A DNA stretch of 64,000 nucleotides from Bacteroidia bacterium. GTDB lineage: Bacteria; Bacteroidota; Bacteroidia; J057. The position numbers and the translations under genes are program-made. The notes beneath the pieces were generated by a model that saw only the letters and a program-made list of their open reading frames with translations, did not search any database and was not told the origin of the DNA. Of the stretch, positions 1,189 to 13,562 are shown in pieces (the first letter of the stretch is position 1; each line of letters starts with the position of its first letter). The stretch is taken from contig JAWPMV010000001.1 in NCBI GenBank assembly GCA_033391075.1, forward strand, positions 5,208,001-5,272,000, in the 5' to 3' direction.

Positions 1189-1277
1189 AAATCGCTACGA
1201 AGCTAGCAAATTAGGCGAGAACTGCCCTGACGCTTTGCCTGTATTATTACATCTTCTTTATCTCATACACCGCTAAA

Positions 1278-2369
1278 TCAGGCCTTCATGGCTTCAGAGA
1301 CCAATCTGTGAAAATGGTGAACCGCTACTTCTTGCTTAGGCGAAAACCGACCTTTATTATACAAACGAGACTTTACGCCCATCTGCACAGACTCTACCAC
1401 AGCTTCATCTTCCATTTCCGTAAGGTGCAAAAGATCCTGATTCTCTGCATTGAAGAGTTCAGCTTTCCACAAATAAGTTTCAAATCTGATCTCCGTTTTA
1501 TTCAGTCCTTTGGGATTTATCAGGTTTAAAGATAGCCCCCAGGGATACACATTGAACATAATATTTGGGAAAAACCAGAACCAATAAGCCGCTATCTGCC
1601 TCCCTGAATCCGGATGACCAGCGGGTAAATCAAAGGCTCGGTCTTCGCCTTTTGCTACCCCTACTTGCAGACTTCCATGATCAAAGATCTCGTATTCATA
1701 ATCCGGAAAACTCACGATCTCATTCAAGCCCGGATGGACAAAAGGAATGTGGAAGCCTTCCAGAAAATTATCACAATACAAAGCCCAATGAGCATTGACC
1801 TCATAGGTTTGAGAATATTCCGGATAGTAAACAAATTCATCAAAAGGCATAAACCCTACCCGATCCAGCATGGGCTTGAGCCAACTTTCAAAGCTAATAG
1901 CCGGATCAATGGCTGTAAAAACCAGCTCTCCCAGAAACTTCAGATCCAATTGAGGAAGGTCATCACTCTTTGCCGGAAAGTTCTTGGCTTCTTTAAATTG
2001 AGGCATGGTTTTGAACTTACCATCCAGCCCAAAACGTCTGGCATGATACCGACATCTAATCTCTGAACAAGGCTTTTCCTCATCTACCAAAACAAAACCT
2101 CTATGGGTACATACATTGGATAGACATCTCAATTCTCCTTCCTGATCTCGGGAAAGCATCAATGGTTCATCCAGACAATTCTCCAGGAAGTTTAAGGGCC
2201 GCACTGTACCAGCAGCCGGCATTTCGCTCTTGCGACCAATACATTGCCAGTTTCGGGTAAAGATTTTCTCCTTACTTTTTTCATATATCTTAGCCTGTGT
2301 ATAAAAATCGCTACTAAGGGTAAAAGCTTGTGAAATATCTGCCTCAACAGAGAGATCAAATTGATTCAT
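1278..2369 (-). CDS. Rieske [2Fe-2S] non-heme iron oxygenase, alpha-subunit type
   Basis: The protein has 363 residues, as expected for the catalytic subunit of ring-hydroxylating or choline-monooxygenase-like oxygenases. The Rieske cluster ligands are visible as C87-x-H89 and C106-x2-H109. The mononuclear iron site shows D200-N-x2-E204-x2-H207-x4-H212, with D321 as a candidate third ligand. These enzymes take electrons from a reductase and insert oxygen into aromatic rings, quaternary amines or similar substrates. No reductase gene lies next to it, so the electron donor must be elsewhere. It is transcribed away from the helicase gene. Substrate cannot be told; the C-terminal domain looks closer to choline monooxygenase/CntA-like proteins than to naphthalene dioxygenase, but this is an impression. 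Confidence 0.88.
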   Translation of the reverse strand: MNQFDLSVEADISQAFTLSSDFYTQAKIYEKSKEKIFTRNWQCIGRKSEMPAAGTVRPLNFLENCLDEPLMLSRDQEGELRCLSNVCTHRGFVLVDEEKPCSEIRCRYHARRFGLDGKFKTMPQFKEAKNFPAKSDDLPQLDLKFLGELVFTAIDPAISFESWLKPMLDRVGFMPFDEFVYYPEYSQTYEVNAHWALYCDNFLEGFHIPFVHPGLNEIVSFPDYEYEIFDHGSLQVGVAKGEDRAFDLPAGHPDSGRQIAAYWFWFFPNIMFNVYPWGLSLNLINPKGLNKTEIRFETYLWKAELFNAENQDLLHLTEMEDEAVVESVQMGVKSRLYNKGRFSPKQEVAVHHFHRLVSEAMKA

Positions 2370-2815
2370 TTGCTATCGGAACATTATGAGTTGATACTAT
2401 TGCAATCCTTATTCCGAAATGTAAGGGATTTATCACTTCTGTGAAAAAAAAATTGAGGAAGAAATAAAGTGTTTGGGTGTTAGCGTGTTTGGGTAAATCC
2501 GTTCTAACACACTAATACTCTAACACCCCAACACATATTTTTCCTCCTGACCCTAAAGCACTTATCCCCATGTGGATAATTTTTTCTAAACCCTGTGGGC
2601 ATATCCGCGTAAAGCCTCATGTACATAAAATCCTATCTATCGTAAAGACTCTACTTTACACGTACGAAAACCCATTGCTATCGGTAAACCTTTAACATAG
2701 GTCCGATTCCCCCCTTCTAACTTCCCCTATCACAGCATAAGCTGATGTCGAACCCGGCGCCAATTTTCGGCGACCTAATCACGCACGCATATTCTTTCAC
2801 CAGATATAAAGACAA
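2370..2815. other. Divergent intergenic region (446 bases)
   Basis: This gap separates the divergent Rieske oxygenase and helicase genes and must hold both promoters. It contains the first octamer hairpin (2469-2534). A small perfect inverted repeat follows at 2642-2659 (GTAAAG, 6-base loop, CTTTAC), and the word CGTAAAG also occurs at about 2609. The last 110 bases are GC-richer and contain a GGCGCC core near 2757. No convincing coding frame or tRNA is seen. Confidence 0.5.
2469..2534. repeat. Octamer hairpin element, copy A
   Basis: The left arm reads as octamers GTGTTTGG GTGTTAGC, then GTGTTTGG. The right arm, read on the other strand, is GTGTTGGG GTGTTAGA, then GTATTAGT. The arms pair imperfectly over about 25 bases around a short centre. 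It lies between divergent genes. Confidence 0.75.
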
Positions 2816-5800
2816 ATGCTCTCTTTCCAAAGAAAACAAAATCATAAAGCAGCCTCTGATACTGCAACTCCTCTTGTAAATCTATTCGCTTATATCAGAG
2901 ATCTGTTTACCACTGTCAAGGGTGGTCTCCGATTTGATGAAGACAAAAATCAATGGTGGGCCCTTGAAGACTTGCTCAATATTACCACAGATAAGGCCGT
3001 CATTGATCGGGAACAATTTCACTTTCAGTGGAAAAATGCAGAAAAGCCGCTGCTCATCCTCAAAAGAGGGGAAGCCGATGAAATGGCGGATGCCCCAAAA
3101 GAACTCAGAGACTGGATTGAAGTTGTAGAAGAAGGAGGCAAAGCAGTACAGCTCATCAAGAAAGAATCCAAACACAGCAAATTTGAGGAGGTCGCCAGCC
3201 GAATGAAGGCATTCAGAGAATTCAAAAAGCAGGTGGATGGTAAAAGTTTGGAAGAAGTCAGTACCCTCACGCTTCCACCAGCCTTAAATCCCTGGATCAG
3301 CCTTAGTCAGGAAGACGGTAAAATTTATGTAAATAAAGTGGAAGAAGCGGAGGAAAAATTTGGGGATGATGAACTGAGAAAAGAAATGTTTGCTTCTTAT
3401 GAAAGGAATTTCAACAAACACCATCAGGGGCAGGCAAATTTCCTCCAGATCAACAACATATATGATGCCCTTCACGACCTATACTTCCAAATGCAAACCA
3501 GCCAGGATCGTCAGCTAACGCTGTCATTTGGGCTGGTTTCTGGCAAGATAGGGGGCAAAGAGTATCACAACTTTCTGTTTCACTTACCCCTCACCCTCTC
3601 TCTCGAGAAACAGGAACTAATACTGGAAGCGGACACCTTCGCCCATGTAATTACCTGTGAGCAGAACTTCACAGAATTGCTGGAAGCCCATTTTCAGGGA
3701 GAAGATTCCGAAAAGACCCACAAGCGCAAGCTCAAGGTTCTGCAGGAAGTCGACAACTTCAATAGAGATAGCCGCGAACTAAATTTCGAAGCTGATTACC
3801 TCCGGGGAAGTTTTTATGCATCAGCCATTCGTATTCTCGAAGTCTTCCCAAAAATTGAGGACCTATTCTTTCAGGGGAAAGAACTCAATTACTGCATGCC
3901 TGCAGGGAAAATAAGTGAGGAAATTCGCTTTAGTTTTTCCCCCGTTATTCAAACCCGCATGCTCAATACGGGAGCTCATGTCGCAAGAGATGCGGAACGT
4001 ATCATTTCCAGTATCAATGAATTGGGCGGGAAAGATCAAAACGATCAAATTCCGGATTTCTTCAAAAAACTCTTTAGCCTGAGAAAACCGGGCAATCCTT
4101 TACGGATCGCTTATAAGAGTATGGCTAAAGATATGGAAGCTCCACGCATAGTAGAAGATCTTCCGGAAAGATTTCTCTTTCCTTTGGCCTATAATGCCGA
4201 ACAGCTCAACATCGCTAAACAATTGCTGCGTCAGGATGCCGTAACGGTACAGGGCCCTCCCGGAACCGGAAAGAGCCACACCATCGCCAACCTGACTTCG
4301 CATTTTGTTGCCGAGGGTAAATCTATCCTCATTGTTTCCAAAAATGCCAAGGCACTGGAAGTAATTCGTGAAAAACTTCCTCAGGAAATTCGCAACCTTA
4401 TGGTGGCTTTCCTCAAAGGAAATGAACACCAGGAAATGCTCCGCAGCTCTATCGATGCGGTCAAAGATAACCTTAGCAGGAAATACGAGGAAGGAGAGAT
4501 CCTCAAGATGGAAAATGACTTAAAGGGACTGGAGGAACAATTTGAAAGCACTCTTTCAGAAGTCAAAAGCCGTATTAGCTCTCAACATGAAGACCTAAGC
4601 CTCTGGGATCCATTTATGAAGCAGGAAAGAAAAGCTTCCGCCATAGAGTGGATCGAGGAGTTGGCACGCTTGGGAGAGGTTCAGTATATCAAAGATGAAA
4701 TTTATCCTTCACAGGAAAGTGGCGATTGGGCGGCCAAGCTAATTCAGGTGCTTGATTTTATCCAGGAAAGCGGGCGTCCGGAAGGAGAACAAATTTTCCC
4801 CGAAGAAGAAGTGCTCCCCAGAAGAGAACGTTTGGAAAAAATCTTTGCGGAATTGGCTGAATGGGAAAATCTGTATGATATCAGGATGTATTCCCGCATC
4901 AAAGCTGATGCATTGAATGATGACTTGCTAGAAAGACTCAAGGAAGCAAAAACTATCCATACAGCTTTGTGTAGTTATGAAAGTTTGTTATTGCATCCCG
5001 CTTTTCAACTCCGCAAATTAAAGCAGGTTCTGGATCAATGTCGTCCGATCTTCCATTATATGTTGGAAGAAGAAAAAGCCTTGCTTCGCTACCAGATCGA
5101 ATGGGAAGACTTAACAGATCTTGATCCTGATTTGGGCTTGAAAGAGATTCGCAATCTCTTCGAAAAGTATGGAGACTCTGGAAAACTCAATATCCTCAAA
5201 AAGAAATTCCTCAACGAAACCCAAAAAGCCTTTTACCTCTGCAAGGTAAATGGCCTGGAAGTAAAAGGGCTGGAACAATTGCTGGTACTGGAAAGGAGCC
5301 TTACCCAGGCAGCGCGCATCAAGCAATTGCAAATCCTGATGAATAATTTTGGTCGGGGTGTGGGAATAGAAGTAGAAAAAGACCAGGTTGAAAGTAGCTT
5401 TGAGCATTGGGATTCTTTGGAGGTATCCCTCAAGAAATTTGAAGATTTCAATTTGATGCTCCGATCTATAGGAGCGGAGATTCTTTCCAAAGAATCAACA
5501 GAAAGACCTGCCCAGATAGAATTCCTGACCAGCCTTTCCGCCTACAAAGGCTACGAGGAGACCAGAAGGGAATGGGAAGAAATCAGTTTAGGCTTGCAAG
5601 AGCATAAAGAATTGCATAAAGCCATCAAAGAAAGAGAGCTCGTCCTTTTCGATCAGGAAATCCAAGAACTCAAAGAAGCGAAAGCCTGGGAAGCAGAAAA
5701 CCTCAGACATGCGGCTCTTCTTGAAGAATTGCGAGAGCTTTTACCCCAAACTTTTGAGTATCTGAGTCAGACCGAAGAGTTGGAACTTTCCGAAGTCCAA

Positions 5801-7393
5801 TTGAATCGGGAAATCCTGGCTCTCAAAATCCAGAAAGTCCTGCAAGGAAGTTTGGAAGCATTGGGTAATCCACGCGAACTTATTGAAGCCTTGAAAAATA
5901 TTCAAAAGGATATCCAGAAGAAGGTCGTAGAACTGATTGCCTACAAAACCTGGTATCACAAGCAAATTCAGATCAGTGATGAGCAAAAATCGGCCTTAAC
6001 TGCCTGGAGAAATGATCTGGTAAACATCGGGAAAGGGCATGGAAAAAATGCCGAAAAGAATATGAAGTCAGCAGTCAGCAATATGCGCCTGGCAAGAGAA
6101 GTTGTCCCCGTATGGGTCATGCAGCAGGATACTGCGATCAATTTCTTCCAGGATCCCAATCCCGGACAATTTGATGTACTCATCGTAGACGAGGCCAGTC
6201 AATGTGATATCAGTATGCTCAACCTCATCTACCGAAGTAAAAAATGCATCATAGTCGGAGATGAAAACCAGACAGCTGTAGCAACTCAGGCTAGGCTTTT
6301 CCCCTTGAGCAGAACCAATCAGCTTTTGGATCGCTACCTGATCAATCATCCCTTCAAACAACAATTCAACATCAACAATCGCTCGAGTAGTGTATACAGC
6401 CTGAGTGGGGTAATTTATCCCAACATCATCAGCCTGAGAGAGCATTTTCGTTGTCGTCCGGAATTGATCGGCTTTTCCAATAAATATGTATATGACAAGC
6501 AAATCATCCCACTAAAAACTTCGACCGATAATCTCTATGGAGCAGCAGCAGAAGTTCATTATATAGAAGATGATCCTAAAAACCCCAAGAAGCCGGCCAT
6601 TGTCAAGGCTTGTGTTCAATTGATTGGGGGCTTGATCGAAGATGTAGAAGCCGGAAGGCTCCCAAACTTGCCTACACTTGGTATTCTCTGTCTGGACTCT
6701 TCTAATGAAGAGCATCGCGACCTCCTCAACAAAGAATTTAACCGCCATCCTCTAATCAAGGCGCATAGAGAAGAATTGAAATTGCTGGTAGGTACTTCCC
6801 GCGAGTTTCAGGGAGATGAAAGAGACATCATGATCCTGACTACAACTGCTAGTCATTCCTTTACAGCAGAAGGGAAAATACGCGCTCCTCGTTCGGTTAT
6901 GGGAGAAGATATGTCACGTATCTACAATGTCGCCAGTTCGAGAGCCAGGGAAAAAGCCATTCTTTTGCACAGCATTCATCCGGAAGCTCTGGCGAAAATG
7001 AAGCCCGAATGTTTCCGAAAAAGAATCATTGACTATTTCTCTATTCAGATGATGGAAAACGAGAAAGAAGAAAAAGTGTACCAGGCTTCTGATATGCATG
7101 CTTCTTTAGGGGAAATGGGCAGGATGGTATTTGAGAAATTGGCAGAAGAGGGCTTCGGAGAGCATCTGGTTCCCCAATACAAATTAGGACCTTATGAAGT
7201 TGATTTGGCTTTGATCAAAGATGGAAAGAAGAAAGCCATCTTCCTCGACCTCATGAAGGGATCAGCAGATAATCTTGATAAGCAGCTGGTATTGGAAAGA
7301 GCAGGCTGGGACTGCTATAGACTACAGCCCTTGGAATGGGTGCTTTCCGAAGAGGGAGCTATGGAAAAATTGTCGCAATGGGTAAAGAGCTGA
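2816..7393 (+). CDS. Very large SF1 (UPF1-like, COG1112) helicase with C-terminal endonuclease-like domain
   Basis: The protein has 1525 residues. The first 440 residues match no domain I can name. A Walker A motif GPPGTGKS lies at 480-487 and the DEAD-type Walker B is D1125-E-A-S1128. The long stretch between them (about 490-1100) is rich in charged heptads and probably forms a coiled-coil stalk, as in AAA_11/AAA_12 helicases. Later helicase motifs include H-F-R-C-R-P near 1220, and a GTSREFQGDERD stretch and S-S-R-A-R-E near 1370. Residues about 1420-1525 resemble the Vsr/REase_MTES_1575 fold, with Y-E-V-D-L-A-L and F-L-D-L as candidate metal-binding parts. Helicases of this class occur in phage-defence systems such as Mokosh, where the nuclease is of the PLD type. 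A defence role is inference; DNA or RNA repair is the alternative. It stands alone with its own terminator. Confidence 0.85.
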   Translation: MLSFQRKQNHKAASDTATPLVNLFAYIRDLFTTVKGGLRFDEDKNQWWALEDLLNITTDKAVIDREQFHFQWKNAEKPLLILKRGEADEMADAPKELRDWIEVVEEGGKAVQLIKKESKHSKFEEVASRMKAFREFKKQVDGKSLEEVSTLTLPPALNPWISLSQEDGKIYVNKVEEAEEKFGDDELRKEMFASYERNFNKHHQGQANFLQINNIYDALHDLYFQMQTSQDRQLTLSFGLVSGKIGGKEYHNFLFHLPLTLSLEKQELILEADTFAHVITCEQNFTELLEAHFQGEDSEKTHKRKLKVLQEVDNFNRDSRELNFEADYLRGSFYASAIRILEVFPKIEDLFFQGKELNYCMPAGKISEEIRFSFSPVIQTRMLNTGAHVARDAERIISSINELGGKDQNDQIPDFFKKLFSLRKPGNPLRIAYKSMAKDMEAPRIVEDLPERFLFPLAYNAEQLNIAKQLLRQDAVTVQGPPGTGKSHTIANLTSHFVAEGKSILIVSKNAKALEVIREKLPQEIRNLMVAFLKGNEHQEMLRSSIDAVKDNLSRKYEEGEILKMENDLKGLEEQFESTLSEVKSRISSQHEDLSLWDPFMKQERKASAIEWIEELARLGEVQYIKDEIYPSQESGDWAAKLIQVLDFIQESGRPEGEQIFPEEEVLPRRERLEKIFAELAEWENLYDIRMYSRIKADALNDDLLERLKEAKTIHTALCSYESLLLHPAFQLRKLKQVLDQCRPIFHYMLEEEKALLRYQIEWEDLTDLDPDLGLKEIRNLFEKYGDSGKLNILKKKFLNETQKAFYLCKVNGLEVKGLEQLLVLERSLTQAARIKQLQILMNNFGRGVGIEVEKDQVESSFEHWDSLEVSLKKFEDFNLMLRSIGAEILSKESTERPAQIEFLTSLSAYKGYEETRREWEEISLGLQEHKELHKAIKERELVLFDQEIQELKEAKAWEAENLRHAALLEELRELLPQTFEYLSQTEELELSEVQLNREILALKIQKVLQGSLEALGNPRELIEALKNIQKDIQKKVVELIAYKTWYHKQIQISDEQKSALTAWRNDLVNIGKGHGKNAEKNMKSAVSNMRLAREVVPVWVMQQDTAINFFQDPNPGQFDVLIVDEASQCDISMLNLIYRSKKCIIVGDENQTAVATQARLFPLSRTNQLLDRYLINHPFKQQFNINNRSSSVYSLSGVIYPNIISLREHFRCRPELIGFSNKYVYDKQIIPLKTSTDNLYGAAAEVHYIEDDPKNPKKPAIVKACVQLIGGLIEDVEAGRLPNLPTLGILCLDSSNEEHRDLLNKEFNRHPLIKAHREELKLLVGTSREFQGDERDIMILTTTASHSFTAEGKIRAPRSVMGEDMSRIYNVASSRAREKAILLHSIHPEALAKMKPECFRKRIIDYFSIQMMENEKEEKVYQASDMHASLGEMGRMVFEKLAEEGFGEHLVPQYKLGPYEVDLALIKDGKKKAIFLDLMKGSADNLDKQLVLERAGWDCYRLQPLEWVLSEEGAMEKLSQWVKS

Positions 7394-7454
7394 TCCTCAA
7401 CCGAAATAGAATTTTTTTCGTAAGATATAATGAAACGGAAATCTAAACCGTGCA

Positions 7455-7486
7455 ACCCCCACCATCTAGTGGGGGTCTATTCTTTT
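7455..7486 (+). terminator. Rho-independent terminator of the helicase gene
   Basis: A perfect 8-bp stem ACCCCCAC/GTGGGGGT (7455-7462 and 7469-7476) encloses the six-base loop CATCTA and is followed by a T-rich tract. It lies 61 bases after the helicase stop and 30 bases before the histidine kinase start, so the two genes are separate transcription units. Confidence 0.8.
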
Positions 7487-7516
7487 GTGTAAATTAGCCA
7501 CCAAAGGATACCAAGG

Positions 7517-9586
7517 GTGAAAAAGAGATTATTACATATCTGTTTTAGCCTGGTACTCATCTTGTGTACCAGTTTTTCTGTTTTCGCACAAATCGACCCA
7601 GCTGAGGCAAAGGACAAAGCCAAAAATGCTGAGGGATTAGAGCGATTGCAGGCCATGATAGATATGTCTGAGCATTACAAGCAATCAAATCCTCGTCAAA
7701 GCCTCAGCTATGCCCAGGAAGCCCTTAGATTTGCCCAAACCCTCAAAACCAAAAACATCCTGGAGGCAGAAGGGTTTTTGTATGACCCTCAAACGATCAA
7801 CGAAAGGAGGGTAGACGCCTTCATTCTGAGTGGATTGGCCTACAAGAGTCAAAAACGCCGTTCTCGGGCTTTGAAAAACCTGAGAGATGGACAAAAGTTG
7901 GCTGAATCTATAAATTACCCAGCCGGAGAGAACAGGGTCAAAAGCATCCTTAGCGAGATGAATGCTGCCTCAGGGATCAACAATGTCCTGGACAATGCCA
8001 TTTCCAAGGTAGAAAAATGGGTAGACGGGAATACCGGAGAAGTAAGTTCTAAAATCAAAAAAGATGCTGCTGCCCGTGGAGCTCAGATCAATGAAAACAC
8101 GGCGAAAAGAGCAGAAGATAATGGTGATTATGAGCGTGCGATCGAGTATTACGAGAAAAGCATTCGCTCCTATATAAGTATAGGGGATAGTGCGAAAAGT
8201 GAAGCACTCAGCCAGCATGTAGCCATGCTGTACAATAAAATTGGAGAAGCAAAAGAGCCCGAAGAGATCATCGCCTTTACAGAATCAGCCAAAAAAGTAG
8301 AGGAAGAAAATAATCCCAATGCGGAAATAGATGATTTTGTAGAAGACCTGAAAACAATCTCAGAAGCCAGCAAGCCTGATCCAATTCTTTCCATCGTTGA
8401 GGAAGAGACAGAACAGAAAACCAAAACGGTTTTAAGAGAGGCACAAAGTCTCATGGCTGCGGGTAGAAATCGGGAAGCAGAAAAGAAATATGGAGAAGCC
8501 CTAAGGCTCCAGGCTGTGCTCCTGCAATATAAAAGTGAACGTCAAATGGATTCCCTCACCAGTGAGTTCTTTATCGAGCTTATGTTGGATGAGCGGGATA
8601 TCTTTGAACAAGAGGCAGAGGATAGTAGAAAAGACAGAAATTTCCTTATCCTGATCACCTTCTTGTTCCTTTCTATTGCGGCCCTTTCTGCCTGGTTATT
8701 TTTTATCAAAAGAAAATCTCATCGCGAAATGAGTCGTGCATATGATGAGTTGGAAGAAACCCATCAGGAATTGAAGTCTACGCAGACTCAATTGGTAGCA
8801 GCAGAAAAAATGGCCTCTTTAGGTCAACTCACAGCGGGTATTGCCCATGAGATCAACAATCCGGTCAACTTTATTTCCGGAAATATTCATCCGCTCAAAT
8901 CAGATATATCAGAGTTACTCAAACTGCTCAATGCTTACGAGAACATCGTTCAGGCTCAGGGACTCAATGAGAAATTTTCAGATGTCTCCAAAATGAAACA
9001 CCAGATGGATTTTGAATATCTGAAAGAAGAGATATCAGAATTACTGGAAGGCATGGCTGAAGGTGCACATCGTACCACAGAGATAGTCAAAGGGTTGCGG
9101 ATGTTTGCCCGTGTTGATGAGGAGCAGCCTAAACCTCTGAATATTCATTTGGGGCTTGACAATACCCTTGCCTTGTTGAAAAGTCAGTTGAAAGATGTCG
9201 AGTTGATTAAAGATTATGGAGATATCCCTGTGATTGAAGGTTTCCCCGGAAAAATCAATCAGGTCTTCATGAATGTACTGACCAATGCCATTCAAGCCAT
9301 GCCGAGCGGAGGATGGATTCGCATAAAAACCCGCAGAGTAGGAGGACAGGTAGAAGTTCGCATTCAAGATACGGGAGATGGTATTCCTAAGGAAACCGTA
9401 GATAAAATCTTTGAGCCTTTCTTTACGACCAAATCATTGGGAGAAGGTACCGGTTTAGGTCTTTCAATTAGTCTGGGGATAATGAAACAGCATGGAGGCT
9501 TTATTGACATTGAAAGTGATCCGGGTCATGGCACAGAAGTGATCCTCTCCTTACCTCTTCAGCAGGAGACCAGCTATTCTTCCTAA
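7517..9586 (+). CDS. Sensor histidine kinase with periplasmic TPR region
   Basis: The protein of 689 residues starts at a GTG; the signal peptide that follows directly supports this start. The secreted part (about 26-370) holds TPR-like helical pairs. A single membrane helix at about 376-397 is followed by a coiled coil and the kinase core. H444 in G-I-A-H-E-I-N-N-P is the phosphorylation site. The ATPase domain shows the N box (N-x3-N-A-I-Q-A-M), the G1 box D-T-G-D-G-I, the F box F-E-P-F-F-T-T-K and the G2 box G-T-G-L-G-L. No receiver or output domain is attached and no response regulator gene is adjacent, so the partner is elsewhere. This TPR-kinase build is common in Bacteroidota. The signal is unknown. 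Confidence 0.9.
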   Translation: MKKRLLHICFSLVLILCTSFSVFAQIDPAEAKDKAKNAEGLERLQAMIDMSEHYKQSNPRQSLSYAQEALRFAQTLKTKNILEAEGFLYDPQTINERRVDAFILSGLAYKSQKRRSRALKNLRDGQKLAESINYPAGENRVKSILSEMNAASGINNVLDNAISKVEKWVDGNTGEVSSKIKKDAAARGAQINENTAKRAEDNGDYERAIEYYEKSIRSYISIGDSAKSEALSQHVAMLYNKIGEAKEPEEIIAFTESAKKVEEENNPNAEIDDFVEDLKTISEASKPDPILSIVEEETEQKTKTVLREAQSLMAAGRNREAEKKYGEALRLQAVLLQYKSERQMDSLTSEFFIELMLDERDIFEQEAEDSRKDRNFLILITFLFLSIAALSAWLFFIKRKSHREMSRAYDELEETHQELKSTQTQLVAAEKMASLGQLTAGIAHEINNPVNFISGNIHPLKSDISELLKLLNAYENIVQAQGLNEKFSDVSKMKHQMDFEYLKEEISELLEGMAEGAHRTTEIVKGLRMFARVDEEQPKPLNIHLGLDNTLALLKSQLKDVELIKDYGDIPVIEGFPGKINQVFMNVLTNAIQAMPSGGWIRIKTRRVGGQVEVRIQDTGDGIPKETVDKIFEPFFTTKSLGEGTGLGLSISLGIMKQHGGFIDIESDPGHGTEVILSLPLQQETSYSS

Positions 9587-9603
9587 AATTCTCTAAACAG
9601 CTG

Positions 9604-10335
9604 CTACAATATGCCTCCCTGCTTCTTCAGGCGAGCCAGCAGCTTTTCATCTTCCTTGAGCTTTACCCCTTCCATAATCGCTTTGGAGAAATCTGCTCCT
9701 TTGATACTGACCCCACTTAAGTCACATTTATTCATCCGTGCGTGATAGAACTCACTGCCATCCAGATTGGCCTTGGAGAGATTTGCTTCCTGAAGATCCG
9801 CTTGATGGAACTTGACTCCTCGCAGGTCTGCATTTGACAGATTTGCGTTCTTTAGCTTGGCATGGCTAAAATTGGCATAGAAGAAAGTACCTCCCAAACG
9901 AGATCCGGCCAGATTTGCTCCCTGAAAATCAGCATACTTATAGCTGGATTTGAGAAAGTGAGTCCCTCTCAGGTCAGTATTCGATAAATTTGCGCGGTTG
10001 AGATTTAGGTGAGAAATTTCTCCTTTGGGGAAACGGACATCTTGCAAATTTGTGGCATTGAAATCCACACTATCCAGCTTTGCTCCCCGCAAATCAGCTT
10101 TGTGCAAATGGGCCCTGCGAATGCTGGCAGCTCGCAAATCAGCTCCATTGAGCCGGGCTTTACTTAGATTGGCACCATCCAGGTTTAATCCACGAAGGTC
10201 CATATTTCTCAAATCCATCCCTTCCAGGGATTCTCCCATCCGAAGCTTTTTCTCTACTTCGGATACGGTTATCTGTCCAAAAATTTGGGTAGAAATACAG
10301 GTGATGCAAATAAGGATCAACAGTTGCGCTTTCAT
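9604..10335 (-). CDS. Secreted pentapeptide-repeat protein
   Basis: The 243-residue protein begins with a signal peptide ending near I-F-G-Q (residue 21). From about residue 38 to 225 nearly every fifth residue is L, F or another hydrophobic one in the pattern A(D/N)Lxx, which folds into a right-handed quadrilateral beta-helix. The repeat run is almost unbroken. Most pentapeptide proteins are cytosolic; the signal peptide places this one in the periplasm or at the surface. Its role is unknown; a structural or protein-binding part is the safest guess. It converges with the histidine kinase gene with 17 bases between the stops and no clear terminator. Confidence 0.85.
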   Translation of the reverse strand: MKAQLLILICITCISTQIFGQITVSEVEKKLRMGESLEGMDLRNMDLRGLNLDGANLSKARLNGADLRAASIRRAHLHKADLRGAKLDSVDFNATNLQDVRFPKGEISHLNLNRANLSNTDLRGTHFLKSSYKYADFQGANLAGSRLGGTFFYANFSHAKLKNANLSNADLRGVKFHQADLQEANLSKANLDGSEFYHARMNKCDLSGVSIKGADFSKAIMEGVKLKEDEKLLARLKKQGGIL

Positions 10336-10553
10336 AATTTCCTTGAAATTACTTAGGTAAAAAGATGAGCCTAAGGAAACCCTCAGGTATCACACTATAT
10401 AAATAGGAAGAGAAGATCCGGGCTCGATGACTTATAAAGATCGAATGCAGGTCATCTTTTTAAATACGCCGAAATAATAGCGAATATTATCTTAATAATA
10501 GTTAATATATTTCGATTTTACCAAATAAAAAGAACAAGTCGATTATCGGAACA

Positions 10554-11039
10554 TCAATCCAATTCCAGAACTTCCAGAATTTCAATCTCCTCTTTGTTTT
10601 CCCTCTTGTTTATAAACAAATGAGGGTATTCTTCCTCCAATAGCCGGTCGATACTACGGATCTTTCCTTCATTCAACTTGTTTTCTTTCTGGATTACTTC
10701 TTCGTACAGCTCAGCTAATGTATTTTTTCTCATTAGGAGCCATTTACCTTCTATTCCCCTTATACGAAACACCTGATTTATTGCAGGTTTTTCTGTAAAA
10801 GACACATCCAGAAAGCCTTCGGTAAAGAACGCATTGGGTGAGATTAGCCTATAAGTAGCCCTTGGAGAATGCTTAGCCTCAAAAGGAATACATCGGGAAA
10901 TTCTCAATATTTTGCGCAGGAGCGAGAAAAAAAGGCTTACCGGAATAAACCCATTACTATTAATGACTTCTGCAACAAGAACTTTTTTTGACTTCAATTT
11001 TGAACTATTAATACGTACCAAATGAAACTGCTGTTGCAA
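10554..11039 (-). CDS. Hypothetical protein, 161 residues
   Basis: I do not recognise this protein. It is basic in its first third, then has a mixed alpha/beta-looking centre (R-I-R-G-I-E-G-K-W-L-L-M) and an acidic, probably helical C-terminus ending E-I-L-E-V-L-E-L-D. There is no signal peptide and no membrane helix. It sits in an AT-rich island with about 200 bases of AT-rich, repeat-like DNA on its 3' side, and it is not in an obvious operon. It could be an ORFan or a recent arrival. The frame is uninterrupted and the composition is protein-like, so I keep it at moderate confidence. Confidence 0.5.
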   Translation of the reverse strand: MQQQFHLVRINSSKLKSKKVLVAEVINSNGFIPVSLFFSLLRKILRISRCIPFEAKHSPRATYRLISPNAFFTEGFLDVSFTEKPAINQVFRIRGIEGKWLLMRKNTLAELYEEVIQKENKLNEGKIRSIDRLLEEEYPHLFINKRENKEEIEILEVLELD

Positions 11040-11184
11040 TTCCCCTTTAAAAGTTCAACCATTCTGATACTTAGACGCCGGGAAAAACAAAATCCTTCCT
11101 GCTTGCGCAAAAGACCAAATAGTATCCCATAAAACTTCTCTGGTTTGTATTACATTCCTTGAATCAAGTACAAATATAGGAATT

Positions 11185-11202
11185 ATTGAACACTCATTCA
11201 AT
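11185..11202. promoter_or_regulatory. Inverted repeat, possible TetR-type operator
   Basis: ATTGAA, a six-base spacer and TTCAAT form a perfect inverted repeat 11 bases after the acyl-CoA oxidase-like gene's stop and 146 bases before the start of the 161-residue gene. The TGAA...TTCA layout recalls operators of TetR-type fatty-acid regulators, but no regulator gene is next to it and no U-run supports a terminator. Function is a guess. Confidence 0.3.
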
Positions 11203-11213
11203 TTCTGTTTTTA

Positions 11214-13562
11214 CTATTTATAGGTTCCCCCATAATTAATTGCGATAGGAGCAGCCAGCATCTCATCAGGTATTCCGAAAGCATCCACCAAGGCAACCGC
11301 ATGTTTCCGTAAACGGAGACAAAGCCGCTCTACCTGATAGCGAATGGCATTTGCTTTTGCATCGGACAGGTAATCATGGGTCATGTAAAACAGGATGTTC
11401 TTTTCCAGGATATTCAGTGCATACAAAGCACAAAGTTTTTTCAATACCTTTTTACCTGCTGCTTCCGGATAATTTTTCACTTCTTCGATAAAGTACTCAA
11501 GCACCACCCTGTCTATATAAGCTTCCGCCATTGTAACCAAATGGGTTTGTACTTCAATAAAGGCATCATAGGAATTCATGCCCTGATCCAATCGATGCTT
11601 GAGCCTGCGCGCAGCAGACATCACCAGACTACTCTCACGGTCTTTAAACATATCCAGGTGCCATTCTGAATCTCTCAGATGTTTTTTGCCTGTTTTTCGA
11701 ACAGCGATCGGATTTTTGTCAGCCAAAGCGTCGAAGGCTTTACCCGCAAAGAAGTTGACCATATTGAAGAGATTCATCGAGTTGAACTCATTCTTGAAAT
11801 CCGAAAGACGTGATTTGGCCACCAATTGCATGAGTACGGTATTGTCTCCTTCAAAGGTGGTGAAGATATCCGTATCTGCTTTCATATCGGCAAATCTATT
11901 GGCCCAGAGGTATCCTGCACCTCCACAAGCCTCTCTGCACTCTTGCAGGGTAGCTGTGGTATTCCAGGTACTGAGTGCTTTTAGTCCTGCCGCCAGTGCC
12001 TCTATTTCTCTTCCTTCCTCTTCTGAGGCATTCACATATCGATGCGCCATTCCCTGATGCGCAAAGTGATAGGCAAAAGCATTTGCAAGGAGAGGCATCA
12101 GTCGCCTTTGATGCGTTCTATAGTTTAGAATTGGAATCTCTGCCTGACCAGCGGGACCAAACTGCTTACGAACAGCCGCAAACTTGATCGCGATTGCCAG
12201 TCCAGACTTTGCAGCACTCAAACCCGCCATGGGTACACTGATCCTACCCCCTACAAGGGTTCCCAGCATCGTGAAGAAGCGCTTGGCTTCATTGGTAATA
12301 GGACTCTGATAAGTTCCATCTGCATCAACTTCTCCAAATCGATTGAGCAAATTTTCCCGGGGGACTCTCACCTGATCAAACCAAAGGCGGCCATTATCTA
12401 CTCCATTCAATCCCAGCTTTCGTCCACTATCCATAATCCTAACCCCAGACATAGGATTTCCCTGATCATCACGGATAGGCACAAGGATCGCATGCACTCC
12501 ATAATTTTCTCCTTCCGTGATCAATTGGGCAAAAACGGTAGCCATTTTTCCATGTACCGCAGCATTTCCTATATATTCTTTGTGGGCATAGTGATGAGGA
12601 GTATGTATGATAAATTCTTCGGTTGAAGGATCATAAGTTGCGGTTGTCTCAATATCCCGAACATTGGAACCATGTCCTCCTTCCGTCATAGCAAAACAGC
12701 CTGCCAGTTCCAGAGAACCTGTATCTTTTAGGTATTCTCTATGATGCTTCTCGGTACCGAGCCCCATAATACTTCCCCCAAATAAGCCAAACTGCACCCC
12801 AAATTTGATGGCCAGACTAATGTCATGGTGTCCCATCATCTCAAATACGGTTACGTAAGAACGCATATCGTTTTTACCTCCTGCAAAATCCGGATAGGCC
12901 AAAGCACCATAGCCCCTTTCCGCCAATAATTTCATCCACTCAAATACCGTCTCTCTATATTCAGATTTATCTTCACTTATCCTGTCGTAGGAAAATATAG
13001 GATCAGAAAATAGCGTTCTCAGCTTCTCTTTCAGTTCGCCCTGATCACCATCCAGGTAAGCTTTCATTTCCGCCAGATCGAATGCAGTAATATTTTCTTC
13101 TTCTTCTGAAACCTTCTCTGGACGGGGAGCAGCTAATATTTCATTGACCGATTCAGCGCTGATAAGTCCGAGCATTTCTGCTGCATTGTGTAAAGCACGT
13201 TCTGCAGATTCTGGCTTGAAGTTCTCGGCACCTTCCTGCCCTCCCAATTTTGAAAGCTCTTTTCCCAGACTAGCCAAATCCTTCAAAGAAGCGGCGGGCA
13301 ATTGTGCCGCATTGTTTCGGATCAGACTGGCCCATCTTTTCACCTGCTTGGGAGTCGGAGGTTTGGCTGGATCTAAACGAGAGCAAAGAAAAACCTTGTC
13401 ATCTTTCTCTAACCAATCCTGATCCTGGATGAATTCTTCAATCAAATTGATCTCCGTAGGAGTCAAAATATCATCGGACCAGGCGATGTATAACAAAGGA
13501 AGGAGAGATAATGCTCCGGGACTTAGCTGAGATGCGTCTTGGGTTAAATCGGTACTTATCAT
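11214..13562 (-). CDS. Acyl-CoA oxidase/dehydrogenase-like flavoprotein with N-terminal TerB-like domain
   Basis: The protein has 782 residues, far longer than the usual acyl-CoA dehydrogenase (about 380). The first 75 residues, with W-S-D-D-I-L-T-P-T-E-I-N-L-I-E-E, look like a TerB-type helical domain; a linker follows to about 165. The flavin enzyme core then shows F-A-M-T-E-G-G-H-G-S-N-V near 290, typical of acyl-CoA oxidases, and F-E-G-D-N-T-V-L at about 570, where E571 is the likely catalytic base. The C-terminal helical domain reaches about residue 780. The reaction would be alpha,beta-dehydrogenation of a fatty acyl-CoA, giving electrons to oxygen or to an electron-transfer protein. 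It stands as a single gene. The fused N-terminal domain is the odd feature. Confidence 0.85.
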   Translation of the reverse strand: MISTDLTQDASQLSPGALSLLPLLYIAWSDDILTPTEINLIEEFIQDQDWLEKDDKVFLCSRLDPAKPPTPKQVKRWASLIRNNAAQLPAASLKDLASLGKELSKLGGQEGAENFKPESAERALHNAAEMLGLISAESVNEILAAPRPEKVSEEEENITAFDLAEMKAYLDGDQGELKEKLRTLFSDPIFSYDRISEDKSEYRETVFEWMKLLAERGYGALAYPDFAGGKNDMRSYVTVFEMMGHHDISLAIKFGVQFGLFGGSIMGLGTEKHHREYLKDTGSLELAGCFAMTEGGHGSNVRDIETTATYDPSTEEFIIHTPHHYAHKEYIGNAAVHGKMATVFAQLITEGENYGVHAILVPIRDDQGNPMSGVRIMDSGRKLGLNGVDNGRLWFDQVRVPRENLLNRFGEVDADGTYQSPITNEAKRFFTMLGTLVGGRISVPMAGLSAAKSGLAIAIKFAAVRKQFGPAGQAEIPILNYRTHQRRLMPLLANAFAYHFAHQGMAHRYVNASEEEGREIEALAAGLKALSTWNTTATLQECREACGGAGYLWANRFADMKADTDIFTTFEGDNTVLMQLVAKSRLSDFKNEFNSMNLFNMVNFFAGKAFDALADKNPIAVRKTGKKHLRDSEWHLDMFKDRESSLVMSAARRLKHRLDQGMNSYDAFIEVQTHLVTMAEAYIDRVVLEYFIEEVKNYPEAAGKKVLKKLCALYALNILEKNILFYMTHDYLSDAKANAIRYQVERLCLRLRKHAVALVDAFGIPDEMLAAPIAINYGGTYK

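Follow-up and report, generated by a model that had tools for sequence, protein, structure and literature searches.

A COG1112-type helicase with a degenerate Vsr-like C-terminal domain in a Bacteroidia bacterium, a candidate single-gene defence protein

In the many anti-phage systems that are described as a combination of helicase and nuclease, the nuclease is taken as the effector. In type II Mokosh, one protein combines a COG1112 helicase with a PLD nuclease. Giant HEPN proteins in which an SF-I helicase is joined to a Vsr-family domain were described in 2013, and PMC3710099 proposes a methylation-free defence for them. Hhe is an anti-phage protein with DUF4011, and in the excerpted text of PMC10250203 a DUF4011 gene serves only as the core flank of a defence hotspot. 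PDC-S37 is a single-gene candidate of PADLOC; the search of the literature returned no paper with this name, and according to the excerpt of PMC12988326 most PDCs still await validation. No paper on ProA as an anti-phage protein was among the literature matches listed. A search of a BREX survey (PMC12839542) found no mention of a Vsr/MTES-type domain, DUF559 or a COG1112/SF1 helicase.

The stretch of DNA that was analysed, called the window here, is 64,000 nucleotides long and comes from a Bacteroidia bacterium. It contains an uninterrupted open reading frame at 2816-7393 on the plus strand, which starts with ATG and encodes 1525 amino acids. The features of the gene are as follows.

2816..7393, + strand: whole gene, SF1 helicase with a Vsr-like C-terminal domain (open reading frame and Pfam)
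2816..4180, + strand: N-terminal domain, residues 1-455, common to the wider family (hhalign against 10 relatives)
4181..4495, + strand: first part of RecA1, residues 456-560 (Pfam AAA_11; 60-64% identity to two full orthologues)
4253..4273, + strand: Walker A GPPGTGK, residues 480-486 (invariant in alignment A2)
4496..5950, + strand: variable insert inside RecA1, residues 561-1045 (21-22% identity to two full orthologues)
5951..7015, + strand: remainder of RecA1 and RecA2, residues 1046-1400 (65-70% identity to full orthologues; Pfam AAA_12)
6188..6202, + strand: Walker B DEASQ, residues 1125-1129 (alignment)
7103..7390, + strand: Vsr/MTES_1575-like domain with a degenerate active site, residues 1430-1525 (Pfam, model, alignment)
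7202..7249, + strand: D1463 to D1478, with F at column 1476 instead of the Glu of E-x-D-G (alignment)
7455..7476, + strand: terminator-like hairpin 3' of the gene, 8 pairs, 6 of them G-C (hairpin search against shuffles)

The earlier note had described a single chain of 1525 residues with an SF1 COG1112-type helicase and a long insert, and the analysis confirmed this. Pfam AAA_11 (E = 1.6e-16, residues 459-595) and AAA_12 (E = 4.8e-7, residues 1205-1384) both matched above the cut-off, and a variable insert of about 485 residues (about 561-1045) lies between the two helicase halves. In addition to this core, the expected residues were present at all 11 motif sites checked (motifs I, II, III, IV, V and VI). 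The window clade comprises four sequences, one of which is a fragment. Eight of the 11 sites (Q463, G480, K486, D1125, E1126, Q1152, R1212 and R1376) were uniform in every row with a letter there, within the clade and outside it, and S487, E1335 and R1336 varied outside the clade only. K486 was present in 3/3 clade rows and 36/36 other rows that have a letter at this position.

The first PADLOC match of the protein was PDC-S37 (E = 2.3e-27, residues 466-1524), followed by MkoC, MkoA and Hhe. The top NCBIfam match was ProA (NF058533, E = 9.4e-34, residues 449-1523), and the best PHROGs match was a family of unknown function (5.5e-20). The motor and the Vsr-like C-terminus align together with ProA, window residues 449-1523 against profile positions 640-1703 of 1903. 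However, the score of 116.1 bits is far below the equivalog cut-off of 1500, the matched stretch leaves out about the first 640 positions of the profile, and the motif Glu is lost in the window protein. When six relatives were compared with NCBIfam, the best ProA stretch started at profile position 628 at the least, and two of them also had a second stretch. Judged from these profile matches, the window protein and the six relatives have the motor and tail in common with ProA, with no sign of its first third. PDC-S37 resembles the window gene in standing alone and matched it in one stretch (profile positions 301-1339 of 1550), but its first 300 positions fall outside the match. Its best stretch likewise started at position 281 at the least in 6/6 relatives, two of which had a further stretch. 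Hhe has a related helicase and C-terminal region, but the window protein is shorter, lacks DUF4011 among its Pfam matches and scored 54.4 bits against an equivalog cut-off of 2000. The HEPN-transglutaminase-SF1 helicase-Vsr REase-wHTH giants (MTES_1575 type) also join an SF1 helicase to a Vsr-family domain, but neither HEPN, transglutaminase nor wHTH was among the Pfam matches of the window protein.

The likeness to type II Mokosh that the earlier note had pointed out gave way to closer kin. If this were type II Mokosh with its nuclease exchanged, the MkoC profile match over the helicase (1.6e-14) would be explained. However, this match is weak, PDC-S37 and ProA match better and extend through the C-terminal domain, and this domain is Vsr-like where that of Mokosh is PLD. 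No PLD family was found among 21 Pfam matches at E ≤1. Membership in Mokosh II was rejected because of the missing PLD match and the weaker MkoC profile, and a swapped nuclease is very improbable. By its sequence matches, the protein is a divergent relative of the class of SF1 helicases with a Vsr-like REase (ProA, Hhe, PDC-S37) rather than of Mokosh II.

The N-terminus had been called unassigned in the earlier note. This still holds for its fold: the model of the domain had a pLDDT of 63.2, the best VIA Z score was 4.6 with this low-confidence model, and Foldseek returned nothing at E ≤0.001 (best 0.19, IpaD). However, the domain is common to relatives. By an hhalign comparison, the window-clade N-termini are homologous to those of ten relatives (probability 97.4%, E = 1.3e-11, 324 columns). 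A plain tblastn search of the plasmid collection with the window N-terminus gave nothing at E ≤0.01. An N-terminus unique to the window clade was considered and rejected, since the profile comparison finds homologues in the relatives. This common domain, 455 residues here and of no named fold, is a clear structural target.

At the C-terminus, residues 1437-1521 matched Pfam MTES_1575 with E = 4.2e-8 and 33.6 bits, under the Pfam cut-off of 38.2 bits. The orthologue L022 passes this cut-off with 42.3 bits, and L021 stays below it with 36 bits. The AlphaFold model of residues 1394-1525 had a mean pLDDT of 82.3. Foldseek found no match to it at E ≤0.001, but VIA-align placed the model near the homing nuclease I-Bth0305I (3r3p, Z 12.1), Vsr (1cw0, Z 10.7, 92 residues, rmsd 1.8) and the RAP domain of FASTKD4 (9gek, Z 10.3). 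By profile and predicted structure, the C-terminal domain has the Vsr/MTES_1575 fold, in agreement with the small domain of this type that the earlier note had recognised.

The active site was compared in 41 aligned rows, 37 of which hold the domain (4 of the clade, namely the window protein, L021, L022 and L004, and 33 others). The Glu of helix 1 is absent from all four clade rows (G in three, L in one) and present in 32/33 rows outside. The motif Glu is likewise replaced in 4/4 clade rows (F, L, W, F) and kept in 32/33 others. The motif His remains in one clade row, L022 (gap in the window protein, R in L021, I in L004), and in 31/33 others, and the Arg preceding Q1490 is found in 0/4 and 31/33 rows, respectively. 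In contrast, the first Asp (D1463) is kept in 4/4 clade rows and 32/33 others, the second Asp (D1478) in 4/4 and 31/33, and Q1490 in 4/4 clade rows. Outside the clade, E-x-D-G-x-x-aromatic-His occurs in 28 of the 31 distinct segments; the exceptions are L104, L114 and L023, the last of which retains E-C-D-G without the His. L104 and L114 hint that nuclease-degenerate branches may have arisen more than once, in which case losing the ability to cut would be a recurring path. The pattern E...D...E-x-D-G..H of the relatives, that of a catalytic MTES_1575/Vsr-like nuclease, is thus absent from the window clade. The nuclease domain claimed earlier stands as a fold, but not with its usual active site. 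The new point, as read from the alignment, is that the clade has lost both active-site Glu residues and mostly the His, and yet keeps the fold and the motor motifs.

The C-terminal domain shares 38-49% identity with the window protein (79 aligned residues; 32-49% across all clade pairs). The N-terminus reaches 41-42%, the two parts of the helicase 60-64% and 65-70%, and the insert only 21-22%. Drift after disuse should resemble the insert, so the C-terminal domain still looks selected for. Vsr itself is not known to have a Glu at the aligned motif position. Therefore, loss of the motif Glu alone would not prove inactivity. The case for inactivity depends on the combined residue losses, and the retained His of L022 weakens it for that protein.

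Could the tail still cut invading DNA, through D1463 and D1478 in a rearranged site? Residual or altered catalysis is possible because L022 has the motif His and both Asp residues persist in all four sequences, along with Q1490. The predicted fold near Vsr and I-Bth0305I also suits an active helicase-nuclease, and PD-(D/E)XK enzymes with migrated catalytic residues exist, according to the relevant text of PMC1185551. Against this stand the loss of the two Glu residues throughout the clade and of the His in three of four members. The RAP-domain protein FASTKD4 has a broken version of the Vsr D51-H69 pair; it binds RNA and reportedly has no nuclease activity (excerpt of PMC11879112). In RecC, an inactivated nuclease-like domain guides a DNA strand (excerpt of PMC1185551). 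On balance, an active nuclease seems unlikely, and the residue losses make a tail that does not cut probable. By analogy, the nuclease-degenerate branch probably has a tail like that of RecC or the RAP domain, where an inactivated PD-(D/E)XK/Vsr-like domain binds nucleic acid and a cutter has turned into a binder. Unlike RecC, whose helicase part is also inactive, the window protein has intact motor motifs.

The tree was built from 34 rows, including the paralogue of the window genome, by a quick search with SH-aLRT support alone. Eight rows (L004, L092, L104, the first half of L106, L111, L112, L113 and L114) were left out as fragments, duplicate or odd. The three full clade members grouped together with an SH-aLRT of 100 on a stem of 3.05 changes per column, and we are unsure where this long branch belongs within the family. 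On the far side of the midpoint root lie L115 and the other COG1112 protein of the window genome. Both retain the motif Glu, so the loss of the active site looks derived. With a midpoint root and long branches, this direction of sequence change is likely, not certain. The gene is split into two frames in the relatives L106 (1032-6134) and L092 (5992-10008). The second COG1112 protein of the window genome (L116, C1:6843000-6850000) has 1386 amino acids and a Vsr-like tail reading IECEG.

The gene was present in 4/13 genomes of its own GTDB family, in one as a 204-aa piece at a contig end (G004), and in 4/22 genomes of the order, all within this one family. Of 395 sampled genomes of the class, 3 had orthologues that carry the N-terminus of the clade. 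A different COG1112-type frame (930-1463 residues), read only in its copy from the window genome, was matched in 13/13 family genomes and is perhaps a core gene. In the phylum, 26 of 395 sampled genomes, among them that of the window, had the N-terminus of the wider family. Of these, 24 belong to one other family, which we infer from gene content to be Chlorobium-like. The plasmid collection gave 147 records with a match. The best had ~33% identity over pieces between residues 446 and 1519, none covered 80% of the query, and the relatives L023 and L025 come from records of more than 2 Mb labelled as plasmids. The viral scan found no relative with a 3-sequence alignment and 13 loci with an 8-sequence alignment; phage records gave 3 weak partial matches.

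The earlier note had also described a stand-alone gene with its own terminator among ordinary genes, and this was borne out. The gene lies between a Rieske oxygenase gene (1278-2369) and genes for a histidine kinase (7517-9586) and a pentapeptide protein (9604-10335), and is followed by the hairpin at 7455-7476; the 64-kb window has 9 terminator-like hairpins, against 5.8 (sd 2.4) in shuffles. When four window neighbours were scanned with PADLOC, the best match was only 0.018. Gene lists judged by eye held no evident defence gene in the 18 kb upstream or elsewhere in the window. A search of 1200-9000 for signs of a mobile element found no repeats, direct or inverted, of at least 18 bases (seed 12), and the GC of the gene resembles that of its surroundings. 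A short dispersed repeat lies upstream of the gene at 2468-2546. It looks palindromic by eye, yet no inverted repeat of at least 18 bases was found there, and it has at least 24 matches in its own genome including itself (E ≤0.001; 40 of 94 candidates scored).

Occurrence in every relative at the same locus, which had been named as an argument against a defence role, was not what we found. In addition to the presence in 4/13 family genomes, the gene has different neighbours in the window, L021 and L022. Besides the window genome, eight family genomes have a strong Rieske match (E 1e-88 or better). In 7/8, this match and the best one to the histidine kinase were on different contigs, and in G008 both lie on one contig ~35 kb apart. 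The comparison is weak, given draft contigs and numerous kinase paralogues, and no empty site could be named.

The gene lists were read at 15 loci outside the Chlorobium-like group (window, L021-L027, L103 and L105-L110). A defence gene lay at most 3 genes away at 5/15, a count without a random-locus control, and the other 10 had no counted one. The PADLOC scan of neighbours covered some genes at 7/15 (window, L021, L022, L024, L027, L107 and L108). In L021, the closest full orthologue, Septu PtuB and PtuA (PtuA 4.5e-146) lie on the opposite strand from ~150 bases past the stop. The gene of L026 is directly downstream of BREX pglX, pglZ and brxL (record annotation). In L027, a PDC-S14 gene lies ~80 bases downstream (2.9e-100) and AbiE genes are close (annotation). 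L108 has SspB, SspC and SspD upstream on the opposite strand, and L107 has matches to type I and type II REases at most 3 genes away. Several loci were not counted. L024 has a type I specificity subunit ~6.5 kb upstream (annotation) and, close by, a protein that partially matches a pAgo profile (3.1e-14), and L110 has terminase genes ~6 kb away. A cold-shock-type neighbour of L022 matched PADLOC CSD_V (6.4e-13), which was taken as a general cold-shock domain; no clear defence neighbour was seen at the window or L022. On the viral contigs L103 and L105, the gene adjoins a head-morphogenesis-like gene and a DNA methyltransferase gene. There, at ~4057-12600, the helicase gene is preceded by a small gene (HTH_17 in L103) and accompanied by the gene of a large DNA methyltransferase; together they are perhaps phage-borne restriction-like cargo. 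On the question whether homologues sit in defence islands, five loci have a close defence gene, and others lie in phage contigs or ordinary surroundings.

A role outside defence was weighed, in which the protein is an accessory helicase for ordinary DNA or RNA metabolism, like Upf1 or IGHMBP2, retained by some genomes. The housekeeping neighbours at the window and L022 fit this role, as does a remote resemblance in sequence to chains of the Upf1 type (best E 4.3e-5). The Chlorobium-like loci L080, L081 and L087 have a common site near genes read by eye as dapA and recN, and because of this repeated site the relatives look like core cargo in those genomes. PC4-type ssDNA-binding genes adjoin the helicase gene in L024 (6865-7089), L025 (11906-12187) and L107 (12077-12346), with E values of 1.7e-9 to 1.8e-11. 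This hints that single-stranded DNA matters in that branch, and the PC4-type protein is a possible working partner of the helicase. However, the gene is patchy in its family where the other COG1112-type frame is in every genome, relatives have defence genes as neighbours or are carried by phages, and the best family matches are anti-phage proteins. Such an accessory role therefore appears rather improbable to us.

The candidate anti-phage helicase of the earlier note keeps its likeness to single-protein defence helicases, but the neighbours in the window are ordinary. Because of the defence neighbours of L021, L026, L027, L107 and L108, the phage carriage of L103/L105 and the occurrence in only 4/22 genomes of the order, we believe that a role in defence against phages or other mobile DNA is probable. 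Our preferred reading, held tentatively and at slightly below an even chance, is a single-gene, ATP-driven SF1 motor (COG1112/Upf1-like) that would act against phages or mobile DNA with a tail that has turned from cutting to binding. Recognition of the invader's nucleic acid or of a replication intermediate would fall to the N-terminal domain and the variable insert. The RecA core, whose motifs are seen, would bind nucleic acid and move along it with ATP. The Vsr-fold tail, presumably a cutter in other branches, would here bind or clamp the strand or dock a partner, without canonical cleavage. More specifically, it is possible, though doubtful, that an effector nuclease became a non-cutting grip within a branch of defence helicases. 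Protection would then be due either to the motor itself, which would strip, stall or unwind phage nucleic acid, or to a host nuclease brought in by the protein. If so, this would be a RecC-like transition within a defence family. A motor that keeps a nuclease fold and has lost the usual cutting residues is a natural experiment on whether a motor alone can protect, and it cautions against inferring a nuclease from a domain match.

Two further genes were seen near relatives. Upstream of the orthologue in L021, a protein of 502 amino acids (4719-6227) has a C-terminus that is TIR- or deoxyribosyltransferase-like by eye; neither Pfam (E ≤0.01) nor PADLOC (0.001) gave a match to it. In L080, an AbiU2-type HEPN gene (12831-13457) lies ~2.3 kb from the relative.
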